A stretch of 35,481 nt of DNA from IMG/VR virus record IMGVR_UViG_3300010354_000262, positions 1-35,481 of that record; one strand, 5' to 3'. The stretch comes from a virus. A program made the position numbers and the translations under genes. Under the pieces are notes generated by a model. It ran no database searches, had not been told where the DNA came from, and worked only from the letters and a program-made list of their open reading frames with translations. Shown piece by piece: positions 5,523 through 34,280 of this stretch (positions are counted from its first letter, which is position 1; each line of letters begins with the position of its first letter).

Positions 5523-5960
5523 ATGCCCTATAAAAATCTCGTATTAGATATACCAAATAGATCACCAACGTTGTCTGTTGGACGAAAGCATCTTTATAAA
5601 GGGTTTAGCACTGTTGATTTTTCCAATACTTCTTCTAAGTTGTATGATTTTGATTTAATAAAGCAAAATATTCTAAATCATTTCAATACCAAAAAAGGTG
5701 AGAGAGTAATGAATCCTGAATTTGGTACGATTATTTGGGATTTAATTTTTGAACCTTTAACGGATCAAGTAAGGGAACTGCTGTCGAACGATATTAATAC
5801 AATTTGTAAATTTGATCCTAGAGTAGCTCCTTTGGAAATAAAGATTAATGAATATGATCAAGGGTATCTTGTTGAGATTACGTTGTTAATGAAATCAACA
5901 AATGAAACAACTACTTTAAGATTAAACTTTGATCAAAGTATAGGCCTGAAAACACAATAA
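5523..5960 (+). CDS. 25: gp25 baseplate wedge subunit
   Basis: This is a 145-residue gp25/GpW-type protein, close to the 132 residues of T4 gp25. In the baseplate, gp25 sits in the wedge core with gp6 and gp53, contacts the hub and helps start sheath assembly; related proteins (TssE) do the same job in type VI secretion. The diagnostic segment is at residues 59-69 (GERVMNPEFGT), followed by WDLIFEPLTDQVRELLSNDI and a C-terminal beta region (APLEIKINEYDQGYLVEITL). The first 40 residues are an extra N-terminal arm. It lies eight bases after the spike gene and 48 bases before gp6, the order expected for T4-like marine phages. Confidence 0.95.
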   Translation: MPYKNLVLDIPNRSPTLSVGRKHLYKGFSTVDFSNTSSKLYDFDLIKQNILNHFNTKKGERVMNPEFGTIIWDLIFEPLTDQVRELLSNDINTICKFDPRVAPLEIKINEYDQGYLVEITLLMKSTNETTTLRLNFDQSIGLKTQ

Positions 5961-6008: not shown

Positions 6009-9000
6009 ATGATTCCTGATTCAACAAAAAAATTATTAATTAGCGAAGACTGGACAAAAATATACCAGTCTTTTAAAAATGCTGATTTCAAAAGCTACGA
6101 TTTTGAAACAATCAAACGTGTAATGATTTCTTATCTTCAGGAAAATTACCCTGAAGATTTTAATGATTATATTGAATCAAGTGAATATATTGCGTTAATC
6201 GACTTAATCGCTTTCTTAGGGCAGAATTTAAGTTTTAGAATAGATCTTAATGCTAGAGAAAATTTTTTAGAAACTGCACAACGAAGAGACAGTATTCTTA
6301 GATTAGCGCAGTTAATTAGTTATAATCCTTCAAGAAATATCCCGTCTAGCGGATTATTAAAGGTCACTGGAATTTCTACGACTGATTCAGTGATCGATGC
6401 TAATGGTGTTAATCTTTCTGACATTACGATAAATTGGAACGATCCTAACAATAATGATTGGTATCAACAATTTATTAACATAATAAATTCTACACTAACA
6501 TCAAATTTTGGTAAAACAGAATTATCTAAAGTTATTGATGGAATACAAACAGAGTTATATAGAGTAAATTCAGATAATCCAGATGTACCAATTTATAATT
6601 TTTCAAAATCTGTAAATGGTACAGGAATGTCATTTGAAGTTGTTTCTGCCTCGTTTGCTGACGAAAATTACATTTATGAAGAAGCACCTAGACCAGGAAA
6701 TCTTTTTAACTTAATTTACAAAAATGACAACCAAGGGTCGGGTAGTATAAACACTGGATTTTTTTGTTTATTCAAACAAGGAACATTGAGTCTTGCTAAT
6801 TTTAATATTTCAAATCCTGTACCTAATGAAATTATAGGTATAAACACACCAAATATTAATAATACTGATGTTTGGTTATGGCAACTCAACAAGCAAGGAA
6901 ATTTTGATTCTTTATGGACCAAGGTTATTTCAAATTCTGGAAATAATGTAATATATAATAGTATCAGTAATTCTCAAAGAAAAATTTACTCCGTAGCGTC
7001 TAGAACAGATGATCAGATTGATCTAAATTTTGCTGACGGCGTGTTCGGTGATCTACCAAGAGGTGAATTTAGATTATTTTACAGACAAAGTAACGGATTA
7101 ACCTACGTTATTAAGCCTGAACAGTTAAGTGGGATAGTTATAAGTGTTCCTTATACAAATTCTAAAGGACAACCTCATACTTTACAACTGACTTTAAGTT
7201 TACAATACACAGTTTCTAATAGTGTTGGATCTGAAACAAACGAATCAATTCAATTAAAAGCTCCTCAAAATTATTATCTTCAAAACAGAATGATCACGGC
7301 CGAAGATTATAATATCGCACCATTGAATGCAGGATCAGATATTCTTAAGGTAAAAAGTGTTAATAGAGTTTCTAGTGGTATCAGTAGATATTTTGATCTT
7401 AAAGATGTTACTGGAAAATATAGTAATACAAATATTTTCGGCTCTGACGGGATTTTATATAAAGAATATTCTGAAAACATTTTTGATTTTACATTCACTT
7501 CTAGAAACGAAATTTTCTCAATTTTGAAAAATACAGTTTCTGGCATTGTTGACGACATTAGATTAAGATCCTTTTTTTACGACAAGTATTCTCGTCCTGA
7601 ACTGGTTTCTTTAGATTTAAAATGGTTTGAAGTCAATAAAACCCCGGGACAAAGTAGAGGATATTTTTATAATACTAATGGAAATTATAAGGTAGGTGAA
7701 GAGTACACTGATAATAATTTAAAATATGTTACAGAAGGTGCTAAGATTAAGTTTTCTGCCCCAGAAGGAAAATATTTTGATAAAGATAACAACTTAATAG
7801 GTTTATCAGAAAGTGAATCCTTAGGATTTAATCCAGTAGATTTTGTCAATGCAGCTAAGGGAACTAATTCTTATAAAAATTATTATGTAAAAACTATGAA
7901 TATTTTACCATTATATATTGGTAATAGTTCATTTAGCACTATATCGGGTACAAGGTACGGTCTTTATAGAGACCCAGATTACAATGGTTTAAAGAATTTT
8001 GTAGATTTATCGTTAACTAATAATTGGACGATAGATAGTACAGATTTATTGAATTTATTTTTTACAAGTTTAAGTTCTTCTGATGCTGCTAGAAGCCAAA
8101 GTCAAAATAAAATTTATTATAGTTTAGAACAAATTAATGTAGGATATAGTCCAATTTATAAAGAACTTCCCAAGGACGGAAAGAAATATATTTGGGCCAC
8201 AGTTAAGCAGGTAATTCTCGACGGCGCAGGTGTTTTAGAAGATGGTACAGGTTCTATAATTTTATCTGACCGTATTCCAAGCGATGCTATCCCTATAGAA
8301 ATTTTAACAAGATATCCTGAAATTTTAGATTACAGTTTTGAAAATGAAATAGTTAACTTGTGTAGTAATTATAAGAATTTTGGGTTAACTGTAGATGTTA
8401 TTACTAGAGGATGGAGTTTTATATTAAACAGTAATTTGAATATAAAAGATCCATTTAATTTAAACACACAAGGAGATGTATTAGATCAAAATCTAGATTC
8501 AAGTTGGTTAATTTCGTTTATATGGAATGGAAAAAATTATAGAATTACTTCAAGAATTCTAAATTATATTTTTGAAAGTGAAAAAGAAACAGCATTTTAT
8601 GTAGATAATTCATCATTAAATTATGATTATACATCTAATTTAATCATAAAAGATCAAATTCTTCTATTACCTATTAATTTAAATTCAAGATCAGAGAGTA
8701 TCGGTGAAAACAACATTTACCAAATTGACAATTTAGTAATTGAGTCAGATGGTTTTGTAGATAATTCTAAAGTTATTATTAGTTTTTATGATTATAATAA
8801 TTTAGGTGAAATATCTAATCCGGATTCTTTTTCTGATATTGTAGAAAGTAATTACATCTATTTTAAAATAAATTCTGATAGAACAAAATTTAATTTAACA
8901 AGAGAAAGTGTTATAGAATTAGATAATGAAGATTTGGTTACTGACAGCATGAAGATTGATGGACAATTATTTTATTTTACAAATCCTAATATTAATGTAA

Positions 9001-9701
9001 TGAAATATTGGTCAAGTGTAACTTCGTTATTAGTCTTTACCAACGATTACATTGCACGAGAAGGAAGATACGATTTAAAATTTCAATATTCTCATAACAG
9101 TGGGGAGCAAAGACGTATAGATCCTAGCAAGTCAAACATTATTGACATATACATTTTAACTTCTACATACGATTCAGAATACAGATCTTATGTTACTAAA
9201 AATGATTTATCCGAACCTCTTTCTTTAACGAGTAGTGAATTAGAAAAGAATTATAGCAGTTTTCTTAATGAAATAAAATCAGTTAGTGATGAAATAATTT
9301 TTCATCCTGTTAAGTATAAAAAGTTATTTGGAACAAGGTCTAATCTTCAACTACAAGCAACATTTAAGGCTGTAAGGAATACTAATGTTCTAACGAATGA
9401 TAACAATTTGAAGAATAGAATATTAACTTTGATTAATTCATTTTTTAATATTGAAAACTGGGATTTTGGACAAAATTTTTATTTCAGCGAGTTATCTACT
9501 TATGTTATGAACAGTCTAACACCTGAAATAACAAATTTTATTTTAGTACCTAAATTAAATTCCCCATTTGGTAGTTTATACGAAATAGGCTGTTTACCTG
9601 ATGAAATATTAATCAGTGTTGCTACTATCGATGATATTGAGATAATTGATGCAATCACCAGTACTCAAATACAATCTTCTAATTCTTTAATAAATTCGTA
9701 A
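6009..9701 (+). CDS. 6: gp6 baseplate wedge subunit, enlarged
   Basis: gp6 forms the ring-like core of the wedge with gp7 and gp25. The N-terminal 130 residues carry the family signature: FNDYIESSEYIALIDLIAFLGQ, then a helix with LETAQRRDSILRLAQLISYNP. A C-terminal region at about residues 1130-1230 (RILTLINSFFNIENWDFGQNF, then EITNFILVP) fits the baseplate-J-like end of gp6. At 1,230 residues it is nearly twice T4 gp6 (660). The extra length lies in the middle, including a module at about residues 632-706 with RYGLYRDPDYNGL at residue 649 that resembles DUF4214 repeats and has a homologue in the next gene. The gene is preceded by a putative late promoter and ends one base before the gp7-like gene. 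Confidence 0.9.
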   Translation: MIPDSTKKLLISEDWTKIYQSFKNADFKSYDFETIKRVMISYLQENYPEDFNDYIESSEYIALIDLIAFLGQNLSFRIDLNARENFLETAQRRDSILRLAQLISYNPSRNIPSSGLLKVTGISTTDSVIDANGVNLSDITINWNDPNNNDWYQQFINIINSTLTSNFGKTELSKVIDGIQTELYRVNSDNPDVPIYNFSKSVNGTGMSFEVVSASFADENYIYEEAPRPGNLFNLIYKNDNQGSGSINTGFFCLFKQGTLSLANFNISNPVPNEIIGINTPNINNTDVWLWQLNKQGNFDSLWTKVISNSGNNVIYNSISNSQRKIYSVASRTDDQIDLNFADGVFGDLPRGEFRLFYRQSNGLTYVIKPEQLSGIVISVPYTNSKGQPHTLQLTLSLQYTVSNSVGSETNESIQLKAPQNYYLQNRMITAEDYNIAPLNAGSDILKVKSVNRVSSGISRYFDLKDVTGKYSNTNIFGSDGILYKEYSENIFDFTFTSRNEIFSILKNTVSGIVDDIRLRSFFYDKYSRPELVSLDLKWFEVNKTPGQSRGYFYNTNGNYKVGEEYTDNNLKYVTEGAKIKFSAPEGKYFDKDNNLIGLSESESLGFNPVDFVNAAKGTNSYKNYYVKTMNILPLYIGNSSFSTISGTRYGLYRDPDYNGLKNFVDLSLTNNWTIDSTDLLNLFFTSLSSSDAARSQSQNKIYYSLEQINVGYSPIYKELPKDGKKYIWATVKQVILDGAGVLEDGTGSIILSDRIPSDAIPIEILTRYPEILDYSFENEIVNLCSNYKNFGLTVDVITRGWSFILNSNLNIKDPFNLNTQGDVLDQNLDSSWLISFIWNGKNYRITSRILNYIFESEKETAFYVDNSSLNYDYTSNLIIKDQILLLPINLNSRSESIGENNIYQIDNLVIESDGFVDNSKVIISFYDYNNLGEISNPDSFSDIVESNYIYFKINSDRTKFNLTRESVIELDNEDLVTDSMKIDGQLFYFTNPNINVMKYWSSVTSLLVFTNDYIAREGRYDLKFQYSHNSGEQRRIDPSKSNIIDIYILTSTYDSEYRSYVTKNDLSEPLSLTSSELEKNYSSFLNEIKSVSDEIIFHPVKYKKLFGTRSNLQLQATFKAVRNTNVLTNDNNLKNRILTLINSFFNIENWDFGQNFYFSELSTYVMNSLTPEITNFILVPKLNSPFGSLYEIGCLPDEILISVATIDDIEIIDAITSTQIQSSNSLINS
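7902..8126 (+). other. DUF4214-like module inside gp6
   Basis: Residues about 632-706 of gp6 read ILPLYIGNSS, then RYGLYRDPDYNGLKNFVD, then a helical stretch ending NKIYYS. The core L-[YF]-R-D-P-D-x-x-G-L resembles DUF4214 repeats (typically LFGRxPDxxGLxYW). It aligns with the module at 16288-16542 in the gp7-like gene. T4 gp6 is too short to include it, so I infer an inserted or exchanged module. Confidence 0.55.
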
Positions 9702-9702
9702 A

Positions 9703-12700
9703 ATGGCTAATAATAAAAAATCTTCTCAGTTTCTTCCTAATTATTATCAAACTGATAAGAATAAAAAGTTTTTGTCTAGCACAATAGATGAATTCTTTAA
9801 ATCTCCTGATCTTCAAAGAATAGATGGGTACATTGGTCAAAAAGCTGTTTTAAATTATGATCCTTCTATTGATGTTTATATAAATGAAACTACACAATCA
9901 AGACAAAACTATCAATTAGAACCTGCATTGGTTTTTAAAACTGCTGAAGGAGAAATTGAAAATGTAATCTTTTATGAAGATATCATTAATAAGATAAAAA
10001 CTTCTGGCGGTTATAATCAAAACATAGATAAGATTTTTAATTCTAAGATCTACCCATTTGCACCACCGATTGATTGGGACAAGCTCGTAAATTACGATCA
10101 ATATTATTGGCTACCACAAGGCCCGGAACCTATTTTTATTTCAACAACAACTATTGGTAATTTAATAGGACAACCTAGTTTCATTATGACCAATACTTAT
10201 AGTTTAAGTAACGGTATGAAATTAATTTTTGATAAGGATCTATCTACTGGAACAACCTATATTTTTTCTAATACAGAATATATTGTAGAAGGAGTTGGAA
10301 ATAGTATTACACTTATAGATTTTTCTAAATTAGAACCAAATTTAAATTTATGTAGCGTGACTAATGAAACATTTGATAATACACCTTTTGATTATTTTGG
10401 TTTCGATTCGGACGGTGCTACTCCTTCTATTCCAGACTATATTACAATTAATAAGGCCAGTAAAGATTTAAATCCTTGGACAAGATATAATAGATGGTTT
10501 CATAAAAGCATAGTTACTACCACTGCTGTTATTAATAATCTTGAATTAACTTTAGAAACTTTTACTCGTGCTCTACGTCCTATAGTTGAATTTCAGCCTA
10601 GCATTCAATTATACAATTTTGGAACAACAGCAATTGGTTCTGTTGATTTAATTGACGATAGTACTGTAGATCCTACCAGTTTAAATGGGCTTGTTGGATA
10701 TTATATAGATGAAATTTTACTAGAAGATGGATACAAAGTTATCTTCAATAATAATTCAAATTTGGTTGATAGAAAAAAGATTTATAAGGTAACATTTTCA
10801 ACTGTAACAAATTTAATTTCTTTAATCGAAGATGTAATTGTTGTAGATAATTTAGATAGTATATCTGTAATATATGGTAAAAAATATCAAGGACAAAGTT
10901 TTCATTACGATGAAAATTCACTAACTTGGATTCAATCTCAAAGCCATGATATACATAATCAAGCTCCTGTTTTTGATGCATTTGATGCTAACGGCATTAG
11001 AGTCAACGATCTTTTCGATGAAAATAATTTTTCTGGAACAAAGATTTTTGGATACGATATTGGTACAGGTGTAAATGACACTGTCTTAGGTTTTCCAATA
11101 AGCTATAACCAAAATTTAATTGGCATAGGCAGTTTTAATTTTAGAAATTATTTTTCTACAGATACTTTTAATTATGTTATCAATAATGTTTCAAATTCAA
11201 CTAATTTAAATTCTTACTTTTTTAAATCAAATTCTACAGCAACATCGACTCTGCAGAACATTTTTAATCAAAGTGTTAATAATACTATTCCTATAATACA
11301 GAATTTTGAAATCTCAACTTCTACCTCCACATTAGTAATTGATTGTATTGATGTACCAATAAGCAGTGTTGGACTTGATATAAAAACGTTTATAAACAAT
11401 AAGTATCGTCAAATTGGTTATTTGGTTAATTCTACATCGTCAGTAATTACCAATAACGAGAACTTTAATACAGATGATTTTGTAACGGTAAAAGTATATT
11501 CTACACAAACATCTAATTCAAACGGTTATTACGAAACTGTTCCTAGTTTGAGTAGTAATCCTTTAAATGAGACAATAAGCACTATGACTTATAGTCAACT
11601 TTTAGATTATGTTGGATCGATGGTACCTAGCATCGGATTGTTTAAAGGTGAATATCCTGGAGAAAGTAATCTTAGAGATTTGGACAATATAAGCTCTTAT
11701 GGTAAGACATTAATTTCAAACGAAAATTTAATTTCCTTTGTTAAATTATTTTTAGGTCATGAAGATTATAATGTTATTACGGCAATGCAATGGGTGTCAG
11801 AACAGTACAATTCTTTTAAACAAAATTTCTTAAGAATCGCAGCCGAATATAACAATAACAATGATCCAGTTGCCGCAGTTGATTCTATACTAGAGGAATT
11901 ATTTAAAAATAAGTTACTAGATGAACCTTTTTATAGCTCTGATATGATAGGGTTTGGTGATAGTAAACAAATTCAAAGTTTTTCTATAGAAACAACATCA
12001 ACAGTTGAATTGCCCATCGCTAATAATTTTGATTTGTCAAGATTATCTTTTGAATCATGTTTAATATACAGGAATGATGAACAATTAATAAATGAAGTTG
12101 ATTATACATTTAATTATGATCAGGCAACTGTTAGTTTTGTAGAACAATTAGATGCTGGAGATACAGTTGATATTCATTACTATAATTCCACATTAGGGTC
12201 ATATATTCCTCCTACGCCAACTAAACACGGTTTGTATTTCAAGTATGTTCCTGAATTGTTTACCGATAATAGATATGTAGACCAGCCAGTTGATATGATT
12301 AGGGGTCACGACGGTTCTTTAATTAAAGCATTTGGTGATTATAGAGATGATATTATTCTAGAATTAGAAAAGAGAATTTACAATAATATTAAAACTAATT
12401 ACAATAAAGAAATCTTTAATATATGGAATAAGATACCCGGCGGATTTAGAAATAACAAATATTCTAAACAAGAATTTGAAAAAATATTAGAAAAAGATTT
12501 TACTTATTGGGTAACTAAAAATGGTGTTAATTTTACCGAAAATACAACAAGCGATTATGATGTTGAAAAGAGTAGGAACTATATTGATGCCGTAGATAAA
12601 GTTAGAGGAAATGTTTTAAATGGTTCTTATAGAAGTATTTTTAGATTTTTATACGATACAGATAGGGCAGAAACTCATCCTTGGGAATGTTTAGGTTTTA

Positions 12701-15700
12701 CTTATAAACCTTCTTGGTGGGAAGCCCGTTACGGAACAGTTTATAATTTTTTTAATAATTTACTTTGGAATGAAGTATTGTCCGGGATTATAGCAGATCC
12801 TGATAATCCTACAATAGATTTTGATTTCTTTAGAAGTGGGGCACTGGTGCCTGCTACACAATTTTCTGAACTAGCACCTGTAGATTATGTTTGTTATGTC
12901 TTTGAAACAGATAACAATACGCAGTCAGAATGGGAATTTGGCGATTTTGGTCCGGCAGAAGTGGCATGGAGAAACAGCAGTTATTACCCATTCAGTCTAC
13001 AAGCAGCCTTAATTCTATTACATCCAAACGAATATCTTTCTAAACAGTTTGATCTAAGTAGAGTATCTAAAAATATTAATGGTCAAATTATTTGGACTGA
13101 AGATAATTCATACCTAAGTCCTAAAAAGTTATTAATACAAGGTCTTAATATAGATCAAATATCTGGCTTCGGTAATTTTTTACTTGAGTACGGAAGTTTT
13201 AAATCAAAAAACTATAAAGAAATATTCGCACAAAGGTTAGCAAATTTAGACGTAAATCTTGCCTATAAAGTCGGTGGATTTACAACTCAGGATAAAATAC
13301 AAATTAAAATAAATGCTGTTGATCCAGAGTCAACAAGTCCTGGTTTGGTTTTACCTAAAGAAGATTTTTCTATAAAATTAAATGTAAGTGACTCTGCAGA
13401 AGTTTTAGATATATCTGGAGTCATTGTTCAAAAGGTTGGAGACAAAAAATATTCTGTTAAGGGGTATAGTAGAAAAAATCTTTCTTTTCAAATATATAAA
13501 CCAATTATAAACAAAAATTCTTTGTCAGTACAAATTGGAGGAATTCCTGAAAAGTATGTTGAATGGAAACCATATTTTGGAGAGGAAATTGTTGGATTTA
13601 GTAAGACAGACTTAGCAACAGCCAATTCTTACAGTCAAAAATTTTATAAGCAAGGACAAATTGTTAGATATGATAATGAATATTATCGTGTTAAAGTCAG
13701 TCATAATGCTTCTAAAGAATTTAATAAAGACTTTTATCAAAAACTTTCTAAATTACCTTATACAGGCGGAGTAAAAGTTTTAACATCGTCGCAGTTTGAG
13801 AATATTGTAACCACTGTACCTTACGGAACAGTGTTTACATCTGTACAAGATGTTTACAGTTTCTTAATAGGTTATGGAAATTATTTAGAAAAGCAAGGCT
13901 TTATTTTTGACTATTATCAAAACGATTTAGGATCTATTTTAGATTGGAGTTATTCAGCAAAAGAATTTTTATTCTGGACTACTCAAAATTGGGCAAATGG
14001 TAATTTAATAACATTATCTCCTTTTGTAGAATATTTAAAATTTAGCAGACAGAATTATATTGTAGACGATATTTTTGCTAAGAAATATGAATATTCATTA
14101 CAGACCGCTGATGGAATTTCATTCAATAAAGAAAATGTTGATGTTAGTAGAGATGAAAATGAGTTTGTTTTAAAGACAGTTAATACCGAAGATGGTATCT
14201 TTTTCGCCCAATTAAACTTAATACAAAAAGAACATATTTTTGTTTTCAACAATACAACAATTTTTAACGATACTATTTTTGATAGACCATCAGGGTATAG
14301 ACAAAAAAGAATGAAACTATCTGGATTTAGAACTAGTAATTGGAACGGAGATTTGTCTAGTCCTGGATTTTTATTTTACAAAAATGATTATTCAGAATGG
14401 GAACCTTACGAAACATATAGTATCGGTGATATAGTCAGATACAATACAAAGTTTTATCAGTCAAATCAAAACAATTTAGGAACAGAATCTTTTGATTTTG
14501 CACAATGGTCTCTTTTAAATTCTAGATATAATGACGCACTACTACCTAACTTTGATTATAAAATTACTCAATTTGAAGACTTTTATAGTAACGATATAGA
14601 TAATTTTGATATTAGTCAGCAACAACTGTCTCAACATTTAATAGGATACACCCCTCGCAGATATCTAAGTAAAATAATTACAGATCCTATTGCTCAATAT
14701 AAATTCTATCAAGGATTTATTAGAGAAAAGGGAACTAAAAAAGTTCTTTCGAATATTATAAAAACCACACAAGATAGGACTAATAATTCTATCGAACTCC
14801 TTGAAGAGTGGGCATTTAGAGTTGGAGAATATGGTGGATTCCCTACATTTAAAGAATTAGAATTTATTTTAGATGAGGGAAGATCCTTAGAAAATCCTTA
14901 TCTTGTAAAAATAACAGACAGCATCTTAGATGATTCAAAAAGTTTAATTCATTATACTAGCAGTACAGATATTTTAATCAAACCGAATGATTTTGATATA
15001 AACAATGTTTTTTACACATCTACCGGAACATTTGAAAAAAATTCTTTAAAAATGTTAAACGCAGGATATGTTAGATTTGATGATGTAACTACTACTGCAT
15101 ACGATAAAAATAGTGTATTAGATATAGCAAATAATAGTTTGATACAAAATGGAAATACTATTTGGGTTGGGTTTTTAGAAAATGGCGATTGGACAGTTTA
15201 TAGGTATCAAAAGCAAAGAGCAAAAATTACTGGTGTTTATGTAAGCAGTCCAGGTGCTACATTAACATTTGTCTGTAACACCCATCATTATATTGAAGTA
15301 GGTGATATAATATCAGTTGTAAATTTTAATCAACAGGTTAATGGTGTATACAAAGTAATAGATATTCCTAATCTATCACAATTTACTGTAGCATCGACTA
15401 TAGCAGGAATTTCTAACGAACCTTTGTTAAGTTTTGGCTCGTTGTTCAAATTTGAAAATACTAGATTTAATAGTTTTGCTAGTTGGAGTCTTACGAAAGA
15501 TCAATTTAATTTAGGAATAGGTTCAAAGGTTTGGATAGATAAGGACGACACTGATAAATGGGGTGTATATGAAAAAATTGATAATTTCAATACAGCTGAA
15601 GAATATAAAATTTCTAATTTCCCTATAGGGCAAGAATTTGGAAATAAAATTTTTGCCAATTCAGCAACAGATGTAGTTCTAGTAGGAGCACCTAATTTTA

Positions 15701-18700
15701 ATTTTCCTACTTCTTTAACTTTTGGCAAAGTAAGATATTACAAACAAGTAAAATCTAAATTACAAACACTATTTGACATTGACTTAAACTATAACAATAA
15801 TTATGCAGCAAACACTGCCACTGATTTTGGTTATTCTTTAAACTATGACATAGGTAAAGAATTGATCATTATTGGAGCGCCTAATGCTACATATGTGAGA
15901 GCAACAACTTCAACTTCTACTTTAATTTGTATATCATCTTCAACATTTATTCCATATAGACCTTTCATAAATGAAGGCCTGGTTAAAATTGCCACCAAGA
16001 ATTCGAGATCTAATGGAGAGACTACAAAAGTTGTTATTGCTCAACCTTATAGTGGGACTACATCAACTATAGAAAATTCTAGATTTGGACATTCATTATA
16101 TATTAATCAGGTTTCAATTTCCAATACAACTACGTTATTAGTAGGCGCTCCTGGTAATGATGCATTTGTTGGCACTGGAACTGTGTTTGCCTACAAGATT
16201 AATTTATTAGATGTTAATCAACTTAATTTTGATTTGGATTCGTTTGTTAATACCTATCGAGGCACCTATACTTTTACAGATTATAAAAACAAGACTTTGA
16301 CAATATTGCCATACTATGTGACAAATAATCTTTACGTTGTAAATTCAGTTAACAGATATGGGTTATTTAGAGACCCTGACAATGCAGGTCTTGCTTATTG
16401 GGTAGAAGCCGGTCTTGTGACTGGTATTGACGGCCAGACTGAAGTGGCAAATACTGCTTTCTTTAACGCTATAGATGCTGACACGTCTACTTTCGATTAT
16501 GATAGATCATTCACAAATAATAAGCTATATCAAAAACAAGGAACTATTGATTTAAGATCATTTTTTACTAGTACAATTAAAGTTTTGTCTACAACAAGTG
16601 TAACCTTGAATCAGGGATCGAAATGGGGTTATGCTATAAGTGGAGATAAAGAAGGTAATAATATTGCCGTAACTGCACCTAGTTATTTCTCTAGTGGTAG
16701 TAAAGGTCTTGTTCAGATCTTTAATAAAAATTTACAATGGAAGCAGACTATAGAAAGTCCATTAAACAATAATGATGAATTTGGGTATAGCGTAAAAATA
16801 TCATCTACAGGTAAATTTTTGTTTGTTGGAAGCAATAGGTCGTTAGCCAGTTTGGAGACATATGGTAAGGTAGTTGTTTATCTTCAAAATTCTAGCGGTT
16901 ACTATGAACTAAATCAAATAATTGAAAATCCAGTGTTTAATTCTGATCTAAAATTTGGTCAAAGCATAGATATCTCTGACGATGAAAATCTTCTTGTCAT
17001 TAGTTCACTAGGAACAAATAAATCAGAAGAAGTAAAATTTTATCAAAGCACTGTGAGTAAAAAAGGTGAAACAACCTTCGATAAAGGTCAGACAAGATTT
17101 GTAACAGTAGTTCCTAATTCCGGTTCTGTTTATACCTATCAGAAATTCGGTGATAAATTTGTTCAATCTGTAGAATTAATACCTGCTGACCTTCAGATAA
17201 ACGGAAAATATGGACATTCGGTTGTCGTAACCGATAAGGATATTTTTGTAGGGGCACCGTCGTATCCTTTAATCCCATCCACTGAAGATCTTTCTTTGTT
17301 GTATAAATTTTCGATAAAAGATTTAACTAAACAGGTTTGGAATAAACTCAGGTATCAAGAAGATCTTATCGATATTGAAAAATTTAGAAGAATTTCTTTG
17401 ATAGATAATTCTTCTGATACACTGATAGACTATCTAGATGTATTTGATCCACTGAAAGGACGAATTCCTGGAATAGCAGATCAAGAAATAAAATATAAGT
17501 CTGTGGCAGATCCTGCTATATATTCAATAGGATCTGTGGGAACAGTAAATGACTCTACTAAAAATTGGCTAGATGACCATATTGGAGAATTATGGTGGGA
17601 TTTAAGCACAGCCAAATATGTATGGTACGAACAAGGCAATGAAATTTATAAAAAGAATAACTGGGGTAAATTATTCCCTGGGGCTAATATAGATGTTTAT
17701 GAATGGGTAAGATCAACGTTGACACCTAGTGAATGGGCTGCTAAAGCAGATACTTCTGAAGGATTGTCAAATGGTATTAGTGGTCAACCTAAATATGTTG
17801 ATAATTCCATTATCAGTGTAAAGCAAGTATTAAACACTGTTACCGGGTCATTTGAAAATGTATATTTCTTTTGGGTAAAAAATAAAACAATTGTACCTGA
17901 TATAGAAAATAGAAGAATTAGTGCCTTAGAAGTTTCGAGATTAATCGCAGATCCTGTTGCGTACGGACAAAAAATTTGTGAAATCATTGGTAATAATTCA
18001 TTGGCATTGGCTAATGTTCAAAATTACCTTGTAGGAAAAAATATAAGTTTAAACCTTGTCTATGATGAAATTAATAACCCTATTCCGTTACATACAGAAT
18101 GGCAACTTGTAAGAGAAGGTGATACTTCGTCGAAAATTCCTAAATTAGTAGAGCAGAAAATCATTGATAGTCTAATAGGATTAGATAAATTAGGCAATGA
18201 AGTTCCTGATACAAATTTGACATATAGAAATCGATATGGAATATCCATTCGACCTCGTCAAACAATATTTAAAGACAGATTTAATGCTGTAAGGAATTTA
18301 ATCACATTTGCTAATAACATATTACTAGAAAATAGAATTTATGGTATTGTTGATTTTGAAAATTTAAATGCACAGGAACCAGTTCCTGTAGAATCAGATA
18401 GAGAGTATGATTATATTGTTGATGATCGAGATATACTAGAACTTATTGATACAACTAATTTTAAACAGGCAAAGATTAGTTGTAATATCACAAATGGAAT
18501 AATAACTAAAATTAATATTTTAGACCCAGGATTTGGATATCAATTTCCTCCTAAAGTTACTATAACACCTGCATCAGACACTACATTAGAAACATTTATA
18601 GATTCTAATGGAAGAGTAATTAGAGTAGAGATTATTCAAAGTGCGGAAACATATGTTAGAAAGATTTTATTCCCTGATGATTGGACAACTTACTCAGCAT

Positions 18701-21700
18701 CACAAAAAATTAATTGGTATAATATTAATAATGTAACTCCTACAGAATTACGTACATTATTTTTTGTTGACGAAAATACTTTAATGTACATGGCATTAAA
18801 TGGATACAAATATTCTAAAGAAATTTTAACTGGTACACCAAGTAAAAGTGCCTCAGTTGTAGGAATATATGATGCTACTCCACCTCGGTTAGAAGTTAGA
18901 CCTCATGCTGTACTAGTTCGAGTTGATAATTTATCAAATAATAGGTGGAGTTTAAATTCGTTTGATTACGATAATAAACTTTGGATAAAATCTAGAACCC
19001 AATTATATAATACTCCTTTATTTTGGGATTATGTAGATTACAAGTCTTCTACTTTTAATCAATATAAGGCCTTTTCTGCCATAATTCCAAATTTATATGA
19101 AATTAGTAATGTAGAAAATATTGTCGAGGGTGATTATGTCAAGGTAATTAACCTTGGCAACGGACGTCAAGGAATATTAGAAAAAGTTAGATCCGGCGAA
19201 ATCGGAACATTCAGTGAAGATTGGAATATTGTTTTCAATGAACTTGCTACAATTCAATTTAAGGAATCGTTATGGAATTTACCCAATACAAACTTTGGAT
19301 TTGATAAGTCTTCTATTGACGAAACCTTATATGATCAATTACCTAATATTGAATTAAAATATATTTTAGAGGCATTAAAAAATCAAATCTTTATAAATGA
19401 TTTAAAAGTTTATTGGAATTTATTTTGTTTCGGTGCTGTGAAATATGCCTTTACAGAACAAAAATTTTTAGATTGGGCATTTAAAACTAGCTTTGTTGTT
19501 GTTAAAAGTAGAACTAATAATTTAGAGAGACCATCTGCTTATAGATTAGATAATAGTCAATATTATGAAGATTTTGTAAAAGAAGTAAAGCCTTATAGAA
19601 CAAAGATTAGGAATTTTGTAGGTGTTAATTCTTACACAGAAAATGCAGGAGTGTTTACTACTGATTTTGATGTACCTGCCACGTTTGATGAAACTCTACA
19701 ACTATTTTTAGGTGCTGTATCTTTTGCTAATGCTGTTAATAGTCCTTTGTTTGTTAATGAGCCTTATAAGAGTTGGAGAGATAATAGGCTATTTTATGTA
19801 AAAGAAATTTTGATTGCCGATGGCGGCACTGGTTATATTTCGCCTCCTCAAGTTCAAATCAATGGCGGATTATATAATAATTCTGCTCCTTCTGATAAAG
19901 CAATTGCCAAGGCTTATATCAGAAACGGTTCTGTATATAAAGTAGATGTAATTTATGGAGGAAAAGATTATCAAGTAAGACCGAGAGTTGAATTTTCTGG
20001 AGGATCATTTACAAGAAAAGCCAAGGCATCTGCGATAATAGCTAATGATACAACTAGAAGAAATATAGTTGGAATTAAATTTGATAGATATTCTTCAGAA
20101 CCAGATATACTTAATTATGAAGTTGATTATACATTTCCTGATCCGTGCGACGGGTCAACACTTGAATTTACCTTGCCATTCAGAGCAGATACAAACAAGC
20201 AGTATATATTTCCTACTCTAGATAAAAAGTTAGTTTTATCTACTGATTATAGGATAGATGAATTAACTGAGAAAGTAGATGGATTTACAACCATTTATAG
20301 TATATTTAAATTTGTAAATTATGTTCCTAAAAATGGTCAAATATTAAGGGTAGTCTATAGAAAACATGTCAGCTTATATAATGCTATAGATAGAGTAAAT
20401 CAATATTATACTCCGACAGACGAAATGGTAGGAAAAAGTTTACCATTATTAATGACCGGCCTAGAATACCCATTCACAAAATTAGAAGGGTTAAAGTTTG
20501 ATTATTCTACCCCATTATTGAATACTGGGACAAACATTATTAGAAATATTCCTGTATTTCCTGTTGATTGGGGAACTTACTCAGCGTCACAAAAAATTAA
20601 TTGGTTTAACATCAATAATGTTACTCCTACAGAATTGCGTACAGTATTTTTGATTGACGAAAATACTTTATTGTACATGGCATTAAACGGATACAAATAT
20701 TCTGAAGAAGTCTTAACTGGTAAAACTAGTTCAAGTTTCTCAGTTGTTGGAGTATACGACAATGGGGGAGGATGGAATGATTTTGTAGGTGATTATAGTA
20801 AGAAAAAACTTATCTCTCCTGCTACAACAAGTTCTACAACATTGTATCTTAATAATGTTTCTGGATTAAAAGTCGGTCAGCATATTAATTTCCTCAATAC
20901 CGCTAGTCAAAAGTTTAGGACAGGAACTGTTATTACTAGTATTTTAACTGGTAGTAATTCTATTACAATAAGTAGTCCTTCATATTATTTGATTAAATCC
21001 TTTGCCTCTGCTACCACAATAGGAACATATATACAGTTTGATACCTATGAAAACTTTAATGGTGAGATTAAAGAAGGTGATAATTTATATATATCCGGTA
21101 TAACCACAGGAGGATATGATGGGTATTATACTGTTTTAGAATTGAACGGAAATAACTCCTTTATAACTACTGCCCATTCTACATTATCTAGTACTAGCAC
21201 TTCGTGGACTACTGCTACTGTCAGGGTATTAAGTATCCTATCTGATATTGAAGTTCAAAATAATGTTATAGGTGAATATAATTTCTATTTAGGACCCTGT
21301 ACATTTCCAGAATGGACTATTTCTGCTAGATCACCAAGTGTAATGGAAGGTTATACCGCAACATTCTTTATTGACGCATTAGATTATTCTCAAGTTGACT
21401 TTAGCAAAGCAAGAACCTTTGGTTATTTCTTGAGCGGAAGCAATATTACTTCAGGTGATTTCACTCCAAGTCAATTGTCTGCCACAGTTACAACATCTTC
21501 TTTGTCATTGCCATATACTTTTACAATTACAATTGCCGATGATGCGGTATCCGAAAATACTGAAACTTTAACTGTTAGTCTGTTTACGTTTGATACTGCA
21601 TCTCCCGGTACTTCGCCATTTAGTACTGTCTCAAATACAACAATTAAACTAAGAGATAGACCTCCCGGTCCAGAATCATTCTATATTTCAGCATCTAGTA

Positions 21701-22965
21701 GTGTAGTAACAGAAGGAGAATCAGTAACTTTTTATATCACCGGTACCAATGTAAACTTTGGTAGCGACGGTAGAGTATTTAGAATATTAGGAGCAGGAAC
21801 TAATATTACATCTGAAGATTTTGTTGCAGGAGTTTTAACGTCAAGCGAAGTCGTTCTATACAGCCAAGACGAGTTTCCATTAATTGTTCCTGTAGAAATC
21901 GCTCAAGATTTCTTAACTGAAGGTCCAGAAAGCTTTGAAGCAAGATTAGAAACATGGTTAAATTATTTAGAAACTGGCACCTCAACATATGTAGCAACTA
22001 CAGTTACTATTTTAGATAGCGTAATTACACCAACATATGAATTAATTGCTCCTTCGATAATAAATGAAGGATTTTTATCAACAATTACATTAGTGACTAC
22101 TAATTTAGCAGTTGGTCAGTTAGTTCCATATGCAATATCAACAGTTTCTGGACAAATTTTATTTACTGAACTTACTACTTCAAGTTATACAGGATCGTTT
22201 GTACTGTTAAGTGGCAGTGGAAGTTATGCTGGAAAACAGATTTCGACAGTTACATTCTCTGCAACAGTCGGTGATTCATACGAACCTAATGATGTATTTA
22301 GATTTAGTTTAACAAATGCTATAAGTCAGATAGGTATGGTTTCAGGACAGACTTACATTGATATAGAAATAGTTGACCAAGTAGTTTCTAATTTTGGACA
22401 ATCACCTTCTACAATCTTTAATAAAACTGCTAATGGTGCTTTAGCTTATTCTAAGATTAGAATTAGAACTACAGGAACAATAAGTTTAGAAATAGATACG
22501 TCTGGAGATTCAGTTTATCCATCTGCAATAAATGTATCACCAGCAAATCAAGTCTGGGCAAATAATACTGCTTCAATAAGTTACAGTAATTACTATGTGA
22601 GGGCAATATTAGATCCGTATGATACTTGGGTAAATGATGTTCAATTCAGTGGTCCTGGGTTTGGTTCAACAATAGATACTAACTATTTTGTAACCAATGG
22701 ATATGCTCCTGTTGTTGGAAGTTGGGAGTATATAAATAATTCCGATGTTGCAGATGGGTGGTTTGGTAGAGCGGTCTATAATAGCGGAGAAAGTTATGCT
22801 TCTTACTATTTGACCATTCAAATAGGTGATTCTAGCCAAAATATCATAGCATCCGGAACTTATAATGTTTCATTAAATTCCCAACAATCTGCATCTGCTC
22901 CATTACCACCCGGTGGTTTTATAACTAATTCAGAAAGCAGTACAGATTTTAGAGACTTACTATAA
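9703..22965 (+). CDS. Giant gp7-like baseplate wedge/virion structural protein
   Basis: This 4,420-residue protein (roughly 490 kDa) occupies the place of T4 gp7 (1,032 aa), straight after gp6. Its N-terminus has the pattern of giant wedge proteins of marine T4-like phages: FLPNYYQTDKNKKFLSSTID, QLEPALVFKT and IDWDKLVNYDQYYWLPQGP. Visible parts in order: N-terminal region (1 to about 1970); seven FG-GAP-like propeller repeats (about 1978-2545) with a DUF4214-like module inserted near 2196-2280; a conserved region with GELWWDLSTAKYVWYEQGN and KLFPGANIDVYEWV (about 2610-2690); three G-x-[GD]-Y-x-x-[PR]-P-x-V segments at 2939, 3371 and 3416; two copies of a 68-residue module (2990-3057, 3619-3686); three Calx-beta-like domains (about 3868-4228); and a beta-rich C-terminus. 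There is no signal peptide or membrane segment. It likely bridges the wedge core to peripheral fibres. Its stop overlaps the next start (TAATG), so translation is probably coupled. Confidence 0.8.
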   Translation: MANNKKSSQFLPNYYQTDKNKKFLSSTIDEFFKSPDLQRIDGYIGQKAVLNYDPSIDVYINETTQSRQNYQLEPALVFKTAEGEIENVIFYEDIINKIKTSGGYNQNIDKIFNSKIYPFAPPIDWDKLVNYDQYYWLPQGPEPIFISTTTIGNLIGQPSFIMTNTYSLSNGMKLIFDKDLSTGTTYIFSNTEYIVEGVGNSITLIDFSKLEPNLNLCSVTNETFDNTPFDYFGFDSDGATPSIPDYITINKASKDLNPWTRYNRWFHKSIVTTTAVINNLELTLETFTRALRPIVEFQPSIQLYNFGTTAIGSVDLIDDSTVDPTSLNGLVGYYIDEILLEDGYKVIFNNNSNLVDRKKIYKVTFSTVTNLISLIEDVIVVDNLDSISVIYGKKYQGQSFHYDENSLTWIQSQSHDIHNQAPVFDAFDANGIRVNDLFDENNFSGTKIFGYDIGTGVNDTVLGFPISYNQNLIGIGSFNFRNYFSTDTFNYVINNVSNSTNLNSYFFKSNSTATSTLQNIFNQSVNNTIPIIQNFEISTSTSTLVIDCIDVPISSVGLDIKTFINNKYRQIGYLVNSTSSVITNNENFNTDDFVTVKVYSTQTSNSNGYYETVPSLSSNPLNETISTMTYSQLLDYVGSMVPSIGLFKGEYPGESNLRDLDNISSYGKTLISNENLISFVKLFLGHEDYNVITAMQWVSEQYNSFKQNFLRIAAEYNNNNDPVAAVDSILEELFKNKLLDEPFYSSDMIGFGDSKQIQSFSIETTSTVELPIANNFDLSRLSFESCLIYRNDEQLINEVDYTFNYDQATVSFVEQLDAGDTVDIHYYNSTLGSYIPPTPTKHGLYFKYVPELFTDNRYVDQPVDMIRGHDGSLIKAFGDYRDDIILELEKRIYNNIKTNYNKEIFNIWNKIPGGFRNNKYSKQEFEKILEKDFTYWVTKNGVNFTENTTSDYDVEKSRNYIDAVDKVRGNVLNGSYRSIFRFLYDTDRAETHPWECLGFTYKPSWWEARYGTVYNFFNNLLWNEVLSGIIADPDNPTIDFDFFRSGALVPATQFSELAPVDYVCYVFETDNNTQSEWEFGDFGPAEVAWRNSSYYPFSLQAALILLHPNEYLSKQFDLSRVSKNINGQIIWTEDNSYLSPKKLLIQGLNIDQISGFGNFLLEYGSFKSKNYKEIFAQRLANLDVNLAYKVGGFTTQDKIQIKINAVDPESTSPGLVLPKEDFSIKLNVSDSAEVLDISGVIVQKVGDKKYSVKGYSRKNLSFQIYKPIINKNSLSVQIGGIPEKYVEWKPYFGEEIVGFSKTDLATANSYSQKFYKQGQIVRYDNEYYRVKVSHNASKEFNKDFYQKLSKLPYTGGVKVLTSSQFENIVTTVPYGTVFTSVQDVYSFLIGYGNYLEKQGFIFDYYQNDLGSILDWSYSAKEFLFWTTQNWANGNLITLSPFVEYLKFSRQNYIVDDIFAKKYEYSLQTADGISFNKENVDVSRDENEFVLKTVNTEDGIFFAQLNLIQKEHIFVFNNTTIFNDTIFDRPSGYRQKRMKLSGFRTSNWNGDLSSPGFLFYKNDYSEWEPYETYSIGDIVRYNTKFYQSNQNNLGTESFDFAQWSLLNSRYNDALLPNFDYKITQFEDFYSNDIDNFDISQQQLSQHLIGYTPRRYLSKIITDPIAQYKFYQGFIREKGTKKVLSNIIKTTQDRTNNSIELLEEWAFRVGEYGGFPTFKELEFILDEGRSLENPYLVKITDSILDDSKSLIHYTSSTDILIKPNDFDINNVFYTSTGTFEKNSLKMLNAGYVRFDDVTTTAYDKNSVLDIANNSLIQNGNTIWVGFLENGDWTVYRYQKQRAKITGVYVSSPGATLTFVCNTHHYIEVGDIISVVNFNQQVNGVYKVIDIPNLSQFTVASTIAGISNEPLLSFGSLFKFENTRFNSFASWSLTKDQFNLGIGSKVWIDKDDTDKWGVYEKIDNFNTAEEYKISNFPIGQEFGNKIFANSATDVVLVGAPNFNFPTSLTFGKVRYYKQVKSKLQTLFDIDLNYNNNYAANTATDFGYSLNYDIGKELIIIGAPNATYVRATTSTSTLICISSSTFIPYRPFINEGLVKIATKNSRSNGETTKVVIAQPYSGTTSTIENSRFGHSLYINQVSISNTTTLLVGAPGNDAFVGTGTVFAYKINLLDVNQLNFDLDSFVNTYRGTYTFTDYKNKTLTILPYYVTNNLYVVNSVNRYGLFRDPDNAGLAYWVEAGLVTGIDGQTEVANTAFFNAIDADTSTFDYDRSFTNNKLYQKQGTIDLRSFFTSTIKVLSTTSVTLNQGSKWGYAISGDKEGNNIAVTAPSYFSSGSKGLVQIFNKNLQWKQTIESPLNNNDEFGYSVKISSTGKFLFVGSNRSLASLETYGKVVVYLQNSSGYYELNQIIENPVFNSDLKFGQSIDISDDENLLVISSLGTNKSEEVKFYQSTVSKKGETTFDKGQTRFVTVVPNSGSVYTYQKFGDKFVQSVELIPADLQINGKYGHSVVVTDKDIFVGAPSYPLIPSTEDLSLLYKFSIKDLTKQVWNKLRYQEDLIDIEKFRRISLIDNSSDTLIDYLDVFDPLKGRIPGIADQEIKYKSVADPAIYSIGSVGTVNDSTKNWLDDHIGELWWDLSTAKYVWYEQGNEIYKKNNWGKLFPGANIDVYEWVRSTLTPSEWAAKADTSEGLSNGISGQPKYVDNSIISVKQVLNTVTGSFENVYFFWVKNKTIVPDIENRRISALEVSRLIADPVAYGQKICEIIGNNSLALANVQNYLVGKNISLNLVYDEINNPIPLHTEWQLVREGDTSSKIPKLVEQKIIDSLIGLDKLGNEVPDTNLTYRNRYGISIRPRQTIFKDRFNAVRNLITFANNILLENRIYGIVDFENLNAQEPVPVESDREYDYIVDDRDILELIDTTNFKQAKISCNITNGIITKINILDPGFGYQFPPKVTITPASDTTLETFIDSNGRVIRVEIIQSAETYVRKILFPDDWTTYSASQKINWYNINNVTPTELRTLFFVDENTLMYMALNGYKYSKEILTGTPSKSASVVGIYDATPPRLEVRPHAVLVRVDNLSNNRWSLNSFDYDNKLWIKSRTQLYNTPLFWDYVDYKSSTFNQYKAFSAIIPNLYEISNVENIVEGDYVKVINLGNGRQGILEKVRSGEIGTFSEDWNIVFNELATIQFKESLWNLPNTNFGFDKSSIDETLYDQLPNIELKYILEALKNQIFINDLKVYWNLFCFGAVKYAFTEQKFLDWAFKTSFVVVKSRTNNLERPSAYRLDNSQYYEDFVKEVKPYRTKIRNFVGVNSYTENAGVFTTDFDVPATFDETLQLFLGAVSFANAVNSPLFVNEPYKSWRDNRLFYVKEILIADGGTGYISPPQVQINGGLYNNSAPSDKAIAKAYIRNGSVYKVDVIYGGKDYQVRPRVEFSGGSFTRKAKASAIIANDTTRRNIVGIKFDRYSSEPDILNYEVDYTFPDPCDGSTLEFTLPFRADTNKQYIFPTLDKKLVLSTDYRIDELTEKVDGFTTIYSIFKFVNYVPKNGQILRVVYRKHVSLYNAIDRVNQYYTPTDEMVGKSLPLLMTGLEYPFTKLEGLKFDYSTPLLNTGTNIIRNIPVFPVDWGTYSASQKINWFNINNVTPTELRTVFLIDENTLLYMALNGYKYSEEVLTGKTSSSFSVVGVYDNGGGWNDFVGDYSKKKLISPATTSSTTLYLNNVSGLKVGQHINFLNTASQKFRTGTVITSILTGSNSITISSPSYYLIKSFASATTIGTYIQFDTYENFNGEIKEGDNLYISGITTGGYDGYYTVLELNGNNSFITTAHSTLSSTSTSWTTATVRVLSILSDIEVQNNVIGEYNFYLGPCTFPEWTISARSPSVMEGYTATFFIDALDYSQVDFSKARTFGYFLSGSNITSGDFTPSQLSATVTTSSLSLPYTFTITIADDAVSENTETLTVSLFTFDTASPGTSPFSTVSNTTIKLRDRPPGPESFYISASSSVVTEGESVTFYITGTNVNFGSDGRVFRILGAGTNITSEDFVAGVLTSSEVVLYSQDEFPLIVPVEIAQDFLTEGPESFEARLETWLNYLETGTSTYVATTVTILDSVITPTYELIAPSIINEGFLSTITLVTTNLAVGQLVPYAISTVSGQILFTELTTSSYTGSFVLLSGSGSYAGKQISTVTFSATVGDSYEPNDVFRFSLTNAISQIGMVSGQTYIDIEIVDQVVSNFGQSPSTIFNKTANGALAYSKIRIRTTGTISLEIDTSGDSVYPSAINVSPANQVWANNTASISYSNYYVRAILDPYDTWVNDVQFSGPGFGSTIDTNYFVTNGYAPVVGSWEYINNSDVADGWFGRAVYNSGESYASYYLTIQIGDSSQNIIASGTYNVSLNSQQSASAPLPPGGFITNSESSTDFRDLL
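15634..17330 (+). other. FG-GAP-like seven-repeat beta-propeller region in the gp7-like protein
   Basis: Seven successive segments share an F/W/Y-G-x-x-[IVL] start and most have a V-G-A-P-like turn: EFGNKIFANSATDVVLVGAP, DFGYSLNYDIGKELIIIGAP, RFGHSLYI...LLVGAPGND, KWGYAISGDKEGNNIAVTAP, EFGYSVKISSTGKFLFVGS, KFGQSIDISDDENLLVISS and KYGHSVVVTDKDIFVGAP. Most continue into a strand such as GKVRYYKQ or GTVFAYK. This is the pattern of integrin-alpha/FG-GAP propeller blades, and seven is the usual blade count. It spans about residues 1978-2545; a different module interrupts it between repeats 3 and 4. Confidence 0.65.
16288..16542 (+). other. DUF4214-like module inserted in the propeller
   Basis: Residues about 2196-2280 contain RYGLFRDPDNAGLAYWVEAG (starting at residue 2218), close to the DUF4214 pattern, followed by a helical segment ending NKLYQK. 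It aligns with gp6 residues 632-706 (ILP-x-Y, RYGL-x-RDPD-x-x-GL, NK-[IL]-Y). It lies between propeller repeats 3 and 4, as a loop insertion would. Confidence 0.55.
18670..18873 (+). repeat. 68-residue coding module, copy 1
   Basis: Residues 2990-3057 of the gp7-like protein. Key residues are DW-x-TYSASQKINW[YF]NINNVTP-x-ELR, then DENTL-x-YMALNGYKY. Copy 2 lies at 20557-20760. By hand count the two share 175 of 204 bases and 54 of 68 residues, far more than the surrounding sequence. No function is assigned. Confidence 0.85.
20557..20760 (+). repeat. 68-residue coding module, copy 2
   Basis: Residues 3619-3686 of the gp7-like protein, in the same frame and orientation as copy 1 and 1,887 bases downstream. 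The central part (TYSASQKINW and NVTPTELRT) is almost unchanged, while both edges and the last 12 residues have diverged. It is followed by a Gly-rich break (NGGGWND). Confidence 0.85.
21304..22386 (+). other. Three Calx-beta-like domains near the gp7-like C-terminus
   Basis: Three units of about 115-120 residues begin with a strand followed by an acidic/Gly turn: ARSPSVMEGYTATFFI (about residue 3868), ASSSVVTEGESVTFYI (about 3990) and APSIINEGFLSTITLV (about 4110). The first two continue with ITSGDFTP / ITSEDFVAG and with ENTETLTVSLF / EGPESFEARLE, which are typical of Calx-beta folds; the third is more divergent. Such domains often act as spacers or calcium-linked adhesion modules. Confidence 0.6.
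22731..22738 (+). promoter_or_regulatory. Intragenic TATAAATA (exact T4 late consensus)
   Basis: TATAAATA lies inside the gp7-like gene, 227 bases before the start of the 970-aa gene. It matches the T4 late promoter consensus exactly and could allow extra transcription of the downstream fibre genes. In such AT-rich coding sequence a chance match is quite possible. Confidence 0.25.
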
Positions 22966-30975: not shown

Positions 30976-32241
30976 ATGGCATATATTTTAAATAAAACTA
31001 ACGGTTCTGTTGTAGCAATAGTTCAAGATGCTAGTTTAGATAATACAACTGATCTAACTTTTTTAGGTAGAAACTATGCTGGTTATGGTGAAATACAAAA
31101 CGAGAATTTTCTTAAATTATTAGAGAATTTTTCCAATTCAACTGAACCTGCCAAACCTATAGAAGGACAACTTTGGTATGATAGTTTAAACAATAGAATC
31201 AATCTTTATAATGGTTCAACTTGGAGAAGTATAGCTAATTTAGATATTTCTGATTCTGATCCTGGAGAAACTAAAACATACTACCAAGGTAACCTATGGT
31301 ATGATAGTATAAACCAACAAATTTATGTTTACAATGGAAATAATTTTATTTTAGTTGGGCCTCCTAGCAGTAATGACCTAATAGCCAGTTGGAAGGGATC
31401 ATATGAAATCAGTGCCAGCACAGCAACACAAGGTTTATCGTTATATAACTTAAAAGCTGTTATTGGTAGTGACGAACAAGTCGTTGCTATTGTAAGTAAT
31501 AATGAATACCAAGTGTCCAGTTCTCCTACTAGCGATAGTTACCCTATTGTCGGTACAACAAATTATCTCAAAAGAGGAATTACTTTAACTGGGGCCAATC
31601 CAGATACAGGATCAAGTAAACTATCTGGTTATTACTTTTGGGGAACTGCGGCAGAAGCACTTAAAGCAGATACAGCAACTTATGCCGCAAATGCTTTAGG
31701 ATTTACGTTTACATCTACAAATGCTAATCAACTATTTTATGTTCCGTTTATATCTACTGGTACAAGTACAGTTTCAACAACTTATATAGACAGTTCTACT
31801 ACAGGTTTATATTATAACCCATCAACTAATATTTTATATGCTACTGCCAGTGCTGCTTTATATAGTGACCTAGCTGAGCGATACCATGCCGATAACGCTT
31901 ATGCTGAAGGCACTGTTTTGGTAGTAGGTGGAAAATATGATGTAACTATCTCAATAACTGAAGCAGACGTATCAGTGGCAGGTATTGTTAGCACTAAGCC
32001 AGCATATAGGATGAATGAAGGAGCAGGCGATCAATCAACTCATCCTTTCATAGCATTGAAAGGTAGAGTTCCTTGTAAAATTGTTGGCAGAATTCAAAAA
32101 GGAGAACTAATTGTAACAAGTAGAACTCCTGGGCATGGAAGAGCCTTTGAAAAATCGGATAGTCCTAATGCTGTATTTGCCAAAGCATTAGAGTCTCACC
32201 ATTTTGATGGACAAGGAATCATCGAAGTTATGGTTGTTTAA
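30976..32241 (+). CDS. Tail fibre protein, third paralogue (421 aa)
   Basis: The N-terminal 125 residues carry the shared module: FLGRNYAGYGEIQNENFLKL, EGQLWYDSLNNRINLYNGSTW, then GNLWYDSINQQIYVYNGNNF and LVGPPS. A beta-rich middle follows (WGTAAEALKADTATYAANA). Residues 296-421 form the end domain: SDLAERYHADNAYAEGTVLV, GGKYDVTIS, VAGIVSTKPAYRMNEG and GRVPCKIVGRIQKGELIVTS, a C-terminal domain that recurs in fibres of marine T4-like phages. The stop codon lies in a palindrome and overlaps the stop of the convergent thyA gene by four bases, so this gene ends the tail module. Confidence 0.75.
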   Translation: MAYILNKTNGSVVAIVQDASLDNTTDLTFLGRNYAGYGEIQNENFLKLLENFSNSTEPAKPIEGQLWYDSLNNRINLYNGSTWRSIANLDISDSDPGETKTYYQGNLWYDSINQQIYVYNGNNFILVGPPSSNDLIASWKGSYEISASTATQGLSLYNLKAVIGSDEQVVAIVSNNEYQVSSSPTSDSYPIVGTTNYLKRGITLTGANPDTGSSKLSGYYFWGTAAEALKADTATYAANALGFTFTSTNANQLFYVPFISTGTSTVSTTYIDSSTTGLYYNPSTNILYATASAALYSDLAERYHADNAYAEGTVLVVGGKYDVTISITEADVSVAGIVSTKPAYRMNEGAGDQSTHPFIALKGRVPCKIVGRIQKGELIVTSRTPGHGRAFEKSDSPNAVFAKALESHHFDGQGIIEVMVV

Positions 32242-32250
32242 ACAGCCATA
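32229..32250 (+). terminator. 22-base palindrome over convergent stop codons (possible bidirectional terminator)
   Basis: TATGGTTGTTT followed by AAACAGCCATA gives 11 paired positions with one T/G mismatch that is a wobble pair in the + strand transcript. It is centred on TTTAAA and covers both stop codons. Short T-rich sequence follows on the + side, but no long U tract, so termination is plausible rather than clear. Confidence 0.4.
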
Positions 32251-33997: not shown

Positions 33998-34280
33998 ATG
34001 TATTATATAAAAATTTACATCCAAGTGTTAGCATGGTAATCTCTTTTGGATCTTCTAATCCAATTTTTATTACATGACTAATTTTAGTTTTGTCTCGAAT
34101 GTCTACAGATTGCTCTATAGCGTAACGACTATTTAAGTTATAGTCAATCCAGTGGTCTATATTTTTGATATCTTGAAATCCACGTTCAATAGTGACCACA
34201 TGAAAGTGATCTGGGATAAAGTTTAATTTCCTTAATCCCAGAACACTAAGTGGATTTATTTCTCCTCTATTGAGACTCAT
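33996..34280 (-). CDS. Small hypothetical protein (94 aa)
   Basis: No family is recognised with confidence. The sequence includes LNFIPDHFHVVTIERGFQDI, IDHWIDYNLNSRYAIEQSVD and the C-terminal LEDPKEITMLTLGCKFLYNT, which suggests a small alpha/beta protein ending in a helix. Its start overlaps the stop of the metallopeptidase/VWA gene (ATGA, bases 34277-34280), so the two are translationally coupled and may act together. There is no signal peptide or membrane segment. The coding evidence is the tight packing, intact frame and downstream Shine-Dalgarno overlap. Confidence 0.65.
   Translation of the reverse strand: MSLNRGEINPLSVLGLRKLNFIPDHFHVVTIERGFQDIKNIDHWIDYNLNSRYAIEQSVDIRDKTKISHVIKIGLEDPKEITMLTLGCKFLYNT

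Follow-up and report, generated by a model that had tools for sequence, protein, structure and literature searches.

A duplicated module in a giant phage virion protein belongs to an undescribed helical domain of uncultured phages

The stretch of DNA analysed here (the window) spans 35,481 nucleotides of the IMG/VR virus record IMGVR_UViG_3300010354_000262 and contains a 4420-codon gene that lies directly after gp25-like and gp6-like baseplate genes (Table 1), with a gp5-like hub/lysozyme match also upstream of it in the cluster. A profile search matched the product of this gene over five stretches (E=2.3e-302) to phrog_10938, a jumbo-phage virion structural protein; giant proteins encoded by the Rak2-like, PA5oct-like and Atu_ph07-like jumbo phages are its isolate relatives. 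One of these relatives, CBB_236, has been detected in virions by mass spectrometry with 21 unique peptides (PMC5259590), and in CBB it directly follows the baseplate wedge CBB_237. The phrog_10938 giants of Rak2-like and PA5oct-like phages, CBB_236 among them, are members of the same family found in the same place after a gp6-like gene. Judged by these relatives, the window, a 35 kb fragment of the record, probably derives from a jumbo phage. A place after gp6 would also fit T4 gp7, but comparison of T4 gp7 with the 4420-residue protein by hhalign gave a probability below 1%; no similarity in sequence was seen and the likeness is limited to gene position. Matches to CBM_5_12 (in two stretches) and FG-GAP_2 exceed the Pfam cut-offs at residues 1565-1590 and 2136-2163 of the protein. 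The minus strand of the window carries a thymidylate synthase gene beside the structural cluster (32238-33125; phrog_160, E 6e-111) and a gene matching phrog_1314, labelled HNH endonuclease (34277-35437; E 1e-103).

Table 1 Features of the giant virion protein gene and its surroundings (positions in the window)
Feature	Position	Strand	Description	Basis
gp25-like baseplate gene	5523-5960			PHROG match
gp6-like baseplate gene	6009-9701			PHROG match
Giant virion protein of the baseplate gene cluster	9703..22965	+	4420 aa; carrier of both modules	phrog_10938
Site-1 insert	18646..18873	+	about 76 codons, missing from relatives	alignments
Repeat copy A (site 1)	18668..18872	+	205 nt, 86% identical to copy B	
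Domain core, copy A	18670..18810	+	46 residues	domain HMM 2.3e-19 (seed search); coordinates from iterated search
Site-2 insert	20533..20751	+	about 73 codons; empty site in L055 reads TGT directly followed by VYDNGGGW	alignment
Repeat copy B (site 2)	20555..20759	+	205 nt, 86% identical to copy A	
Domain core, copy B	20557..20697	+	46 residues	domain HMM 1.8e-18 (seed search); coordinates from iterated search
VYD codons	20752..20760	+	native site-2 flank; counterpart IYD codons end copy A at site 1	L055 VYDNGGGWNDF vs window; L059 IYDMGGFND

Two copies of a direct repeat, designated A and B, lie within the giant gene and constitute by far the strongest direct repeat that a repeat finder detected in the window. 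Over the full unit 177 of 205 bases are identical by script count (blastn, E = 2.6e-67 for the second copy), and the longest exact run common to both copies is 19 bp. The initial annotation had described this repeat as two sharply bounded copies in one reading frame that agree in 175 of 204 bases (18670-18873 and 20557-20760). A script reproduced that count exactly, the edges are indeed sharp (mostly 12-14 matching bases per 15 within the unit and 2-7 just outside it), and both copies are in frame within the 9703-22965 open reading frame. With 28 bases different between them, the copies are unlikely to result from a trivial duplication in assembly. The spacing from copy A to copy B is 1887 nt, or 629 codons.

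Each repeat copy encodes the pattern LPxxWxxYsPxQKIxWFNxNxVTPxxLxxAGVxxxdIdWMxxNGY. As a single-sequence search with copy B returned no IMG/VR relative, IMG/VR was searched with a degenerate DNA motif for KIxW[FY]NxNx[VI]TP. This motif recovered 34 stretches, the frames of which read as the same pattern of about 46 residues. A search of phage metagenomes for other insertion sites had been proposed in the initial annotation; a profile scan and an iterated HMM placed 221 domain matches in at least 118 IMG/VR ORFs, some of the loci representing one contig in duplicate. Both window copies were among the 25 seeds of the HMM, and the independent check is therefore provided by the members that were found by the short motif and then agreed over the full length. 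Across 48 domain sequences W6, K14 and G46 are invariant and the P, I, N and L positions nearly so, and the window copies conform to this pattern. The 118 ORFs hold one copy (56 ORFs), two (22), three (39) or, in a single case, four; with ORFs taken from stop to stop, the first copy lies no more than 60 residues from the ORF start in 84 of them. On two contigs (L016 and L020) the domain is present in two different ORFs. Annotated carriers include DNA ejection proteins (phrog_598 and phrog_4287), a tailspike (phrog_2234), tape-measure-like proteins (phrog_3547) and hub/lysozyme-like proteins (phrog_430), the ejection and tape-measure labels being mostly weak PHROG assignments. Single-linkage clustering chained 112 of 121 carrier ORFs (those with at least 150 unmasked residues, further loci beyond the main set included), and a coverage-based grouping by residual similarity was therefore used, which gave 20-23 groups at 30-50% coverage and 23 at 50%; with many carriers chained by partial similarity, the number of truly unrelated carrier proteins is uncertain. 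Each repeat unit forms a small module around an undescribed four-helix domain of about 46 residues, and this domain reappears in virion proteins of uncultured phages that are otherwise unrelated to one another.

The earlier statement that the module resembles no nameable family stands for the curated libraries and fails beyond them, since the module is a member of an undescribed domain family that is widespread in phages. None of the 48 members gave a credible match at curated cut-off in Pfam or NCBIfam, wall-binding families included. Weak partial matches to phrog_37693 (48 positions, function unknown) were obtained for 16 of the 48 members, the best at 6e-4; the matches inspected individually cover the N-terminal part of the domain and neither window copy matches, so that phrog_37693 was rejected as the family of the module. 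No credible match was obtained by tblastn of the module or its consensus in isolate phages or plasmids, the domain was not detected with the consensus query in 50,697 isolate phage records, and a PDB sequence search produced nothing credible. The sole motif match in a scan of genome contigs, in Desulfocicer, was judged to be a chance occurrence as the motif part alone fits.

An AlphaFold2 model of the domain, built from the 48 domain sequences, predicts four short helices with pLDDT 94-97 over residues 1-50. Foldseek comparison of this model with PDB and BFVD returned nothing significant (E >= 4.9), and its best VIA match was the PEX14 N-terminal domain (Z 2.5 over 44 residues). An 891-residue context model (mean pLDDT 70.5) predicts a helical insert for each module; module 1 is placed between beta strands, its helices reaching a pLDDT of only 55-67, and module 2 falls in a low-confidence stretch.

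The two insertion sites were compared with five distinct relatives of the giant protein from a first scan and 80 loci from a second, some of which share contigs. Whereas phrog_10938 relatives have short loops at these sites, the window protein adds a module at each. No aligned relative has a module at site 1, a short loop being present there instead. The alignment at site 2 is incomplete in many rows, and the claim of absence therefore rests on the domain HMM, which was run over every six-frame ORF: apart from the two copies of the window, its sole match in a relative of the giant protein is one copy at site 2 of L059. The initial annotation had held that ancient constrained repeats would be equally similar across distant phages; two equally similar copies were not found across the relatives compared here. 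At the empty site 2 of L055, TGT runs directly into VYDNGGGWNDF, and the insert of the window sits between these two segments. Copy A ends in SVVGIYD and is followed by the native site-1 sequence ATPPRLEVRPH. The terminal YD of copy A matches the site-2 flank in L055, several other relatives have YD or FD at that flank, and no other relative in the alignment shows YD at site 1. All three copies, A, B and that of L059, agree in 28 of 72 columns, including the linker that follows the domain (YxYxxExxxG...YD).

These comparisons suggest a history in which site 2 of the giant protein would have acquired the module in an ancestor perhaps shared with L059, and in which the module, together with a few downstream flank residues, would then have been copied by ectopic recombination into site 1, putatively a loop between beta strands, in the lineage of the window only. 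The final YD of copy A is best read as flank transferred from site 2, which gives the direction B to A; this hitchhiking argument consists of three residues (I-Y-D), and the order of events, site 2 and then site 1, is likely on sequence grounds. The window and L059 fall within a single five-row clade of the tree (98), and the sister of the window, L052 (98), is without the module; a single gain at site 2 therefore needs losses in L052, L055 and L046, or else site 2 was filled twice. The divergence between the copies (dN about 0.12, dS about 0.35-0.40) indicates that the duplication is not very recent and that both copies are under coding constraint, and the GC content of the module matches that of the carrier gene. 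The initial annotation had offered recent duplication, recombination or strong selection as explanations; a duplication after the split from known relatives and purifying selection are borne out, and the element of recency is not. We place the probability that the domain identity and the insertion-and-duplication history are as proposed at about 0.8.

Alternatively, one outside module may have entered the gene twice independently, with no duplication from site to site. The domain is evolutionarily mobile in general, which would suit such a scenario, but copies A and B are 78% identical as proteins while B is at most about 50% identical to any other member, and they have in common both the linkers and the YD end, which makes independent insertions improbable. 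It is highly improbable that the insert is a mobile genetic element in its own right, such as an intron, an intein or a bypass element. Two clean in-frame insertions of near-equal length could be read in that way, but the insert has no Rfam match and folds as RNA no better than shuffled sequences (z = -0.02), results on which an intron, RNA or splicing element was rejected; moreover, its frame is open and under purifying selection, and the same sequence is recognisable elsewhere as a protein domain. The direct repeat had further been proposed to allow an in-frame deletion of about 629 residues. The arithmetic is exact (629 codons), but the proposal is otherwise unsupported, as no deletion between the copies was found in any relative examined and their longest exact match is 19 bp. 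Such a deletion would probably destroy the giant protein, since 38 of the 44 columns that are invariant in the aligned region lie between copies A and B. The repeat itself, under the favoured history of insertion followed by duplication, is ordinary phage domain shuffling with duplication. Tail and receptor-binding proteins are typical sites of domain mosaicism, in which fragments are shared between otherwise unrelated phage proteins (Smug et al. 2023, PMC10684548), and the present module is likewise common to otherwise unrelated phage proteins. Unlike the cases in that report, it is small and helical, lies outside Pfam and NCBIfam, is duplicated within one gene and is carried here by a giant protein of a baseplate gene cluster.

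With regard to function, the two modules may be displayed as surface knobs with a binding or docking role, their partner being either the envelope of the host cell or another part of the virion, and duplication of the module would then raise valency; we hold this step tentatively, at somewhat less than even odds. One possible reading, which we likewise regard as falling a little short of an even chance, is that the domain serves adsorption or envelope penetration by binding peptidoglycan, capsule or LPS glycan in the host envelope. The carriers are ejection, tailspike, hub/lysozyme-like and baseplate-cluster proteins, two to three copies per protein are frequent in wall-binding repeats as well, the giant protein also has its CBM_5_12 carbohydrate-binding matches, and aromatic residues (W, WF, WM) are conserved in the domain. 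Against this, no known wall-binding family was matched, and the domain often occupies the extreme N-terminus of ejection-type proteins (the 84 of 118 ORFs noted above), which would be inside the particle. That N-terminal position, together with the contigs that have two different domain-bearing ORFs, would suit a docking or assembly tag through which virion proteins attach to one shared partner in the particle; the giant protein, however, has the domain only sporadically and is intact without it in most relatives, and we consider a tag of this kind rather unlikely. The broadest proposal, in which many unrelated virion proteins of uncultured phages use the domain as a new module for envelope binding or penetration and phages adjust its copy number through duplication within genes to control valency or host interaction, appears doubtful.

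The giant protein holds further inserts, both in the window and in its relatives. Another window-specific insert (16204-16521) has a weak DUF4214 match below the cut-off (NRYGLFRDPDNAGLAYWVEAG; E 0.0075), and the insert of L098 at window residue 3952 contains a DUF4214 domain above the Pfam cut-off. Inserts of L097 at window residues 2340 and 4349 look dockerin-like, the second with a weak Dockerin_1 match (E 0.015). L082 has a long insert (473 aa) at window residue 965, and L096, L005, L007 and L090 have inserts of about 270-280 aa in three pieces at 4355-4365; these long inserts are laminin-G-like and SGNH-esterase-like by eye only. The DUF4214 and dockerin-like inserts of the relatives are, like the module, small and sporadic in the giant protein, but they belong to sequence families other than the domain of about 46 residues. 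The giant protein seems to act as a scaffold onto which small modules are added, consistent with published phage domain mosaicism (PMC10684548).

While the remainder is ordinary domain mosaicism, the main interest lies in an undescribed virion-associated domain that is missing from the curated libraries searched. A name for this domain would allow parts of many ejection, tail and baseplate-cluster proteins in uncultured phages to be annotated, and the domain itself is a small, defined and expressible unit for tests of host or virion binding.
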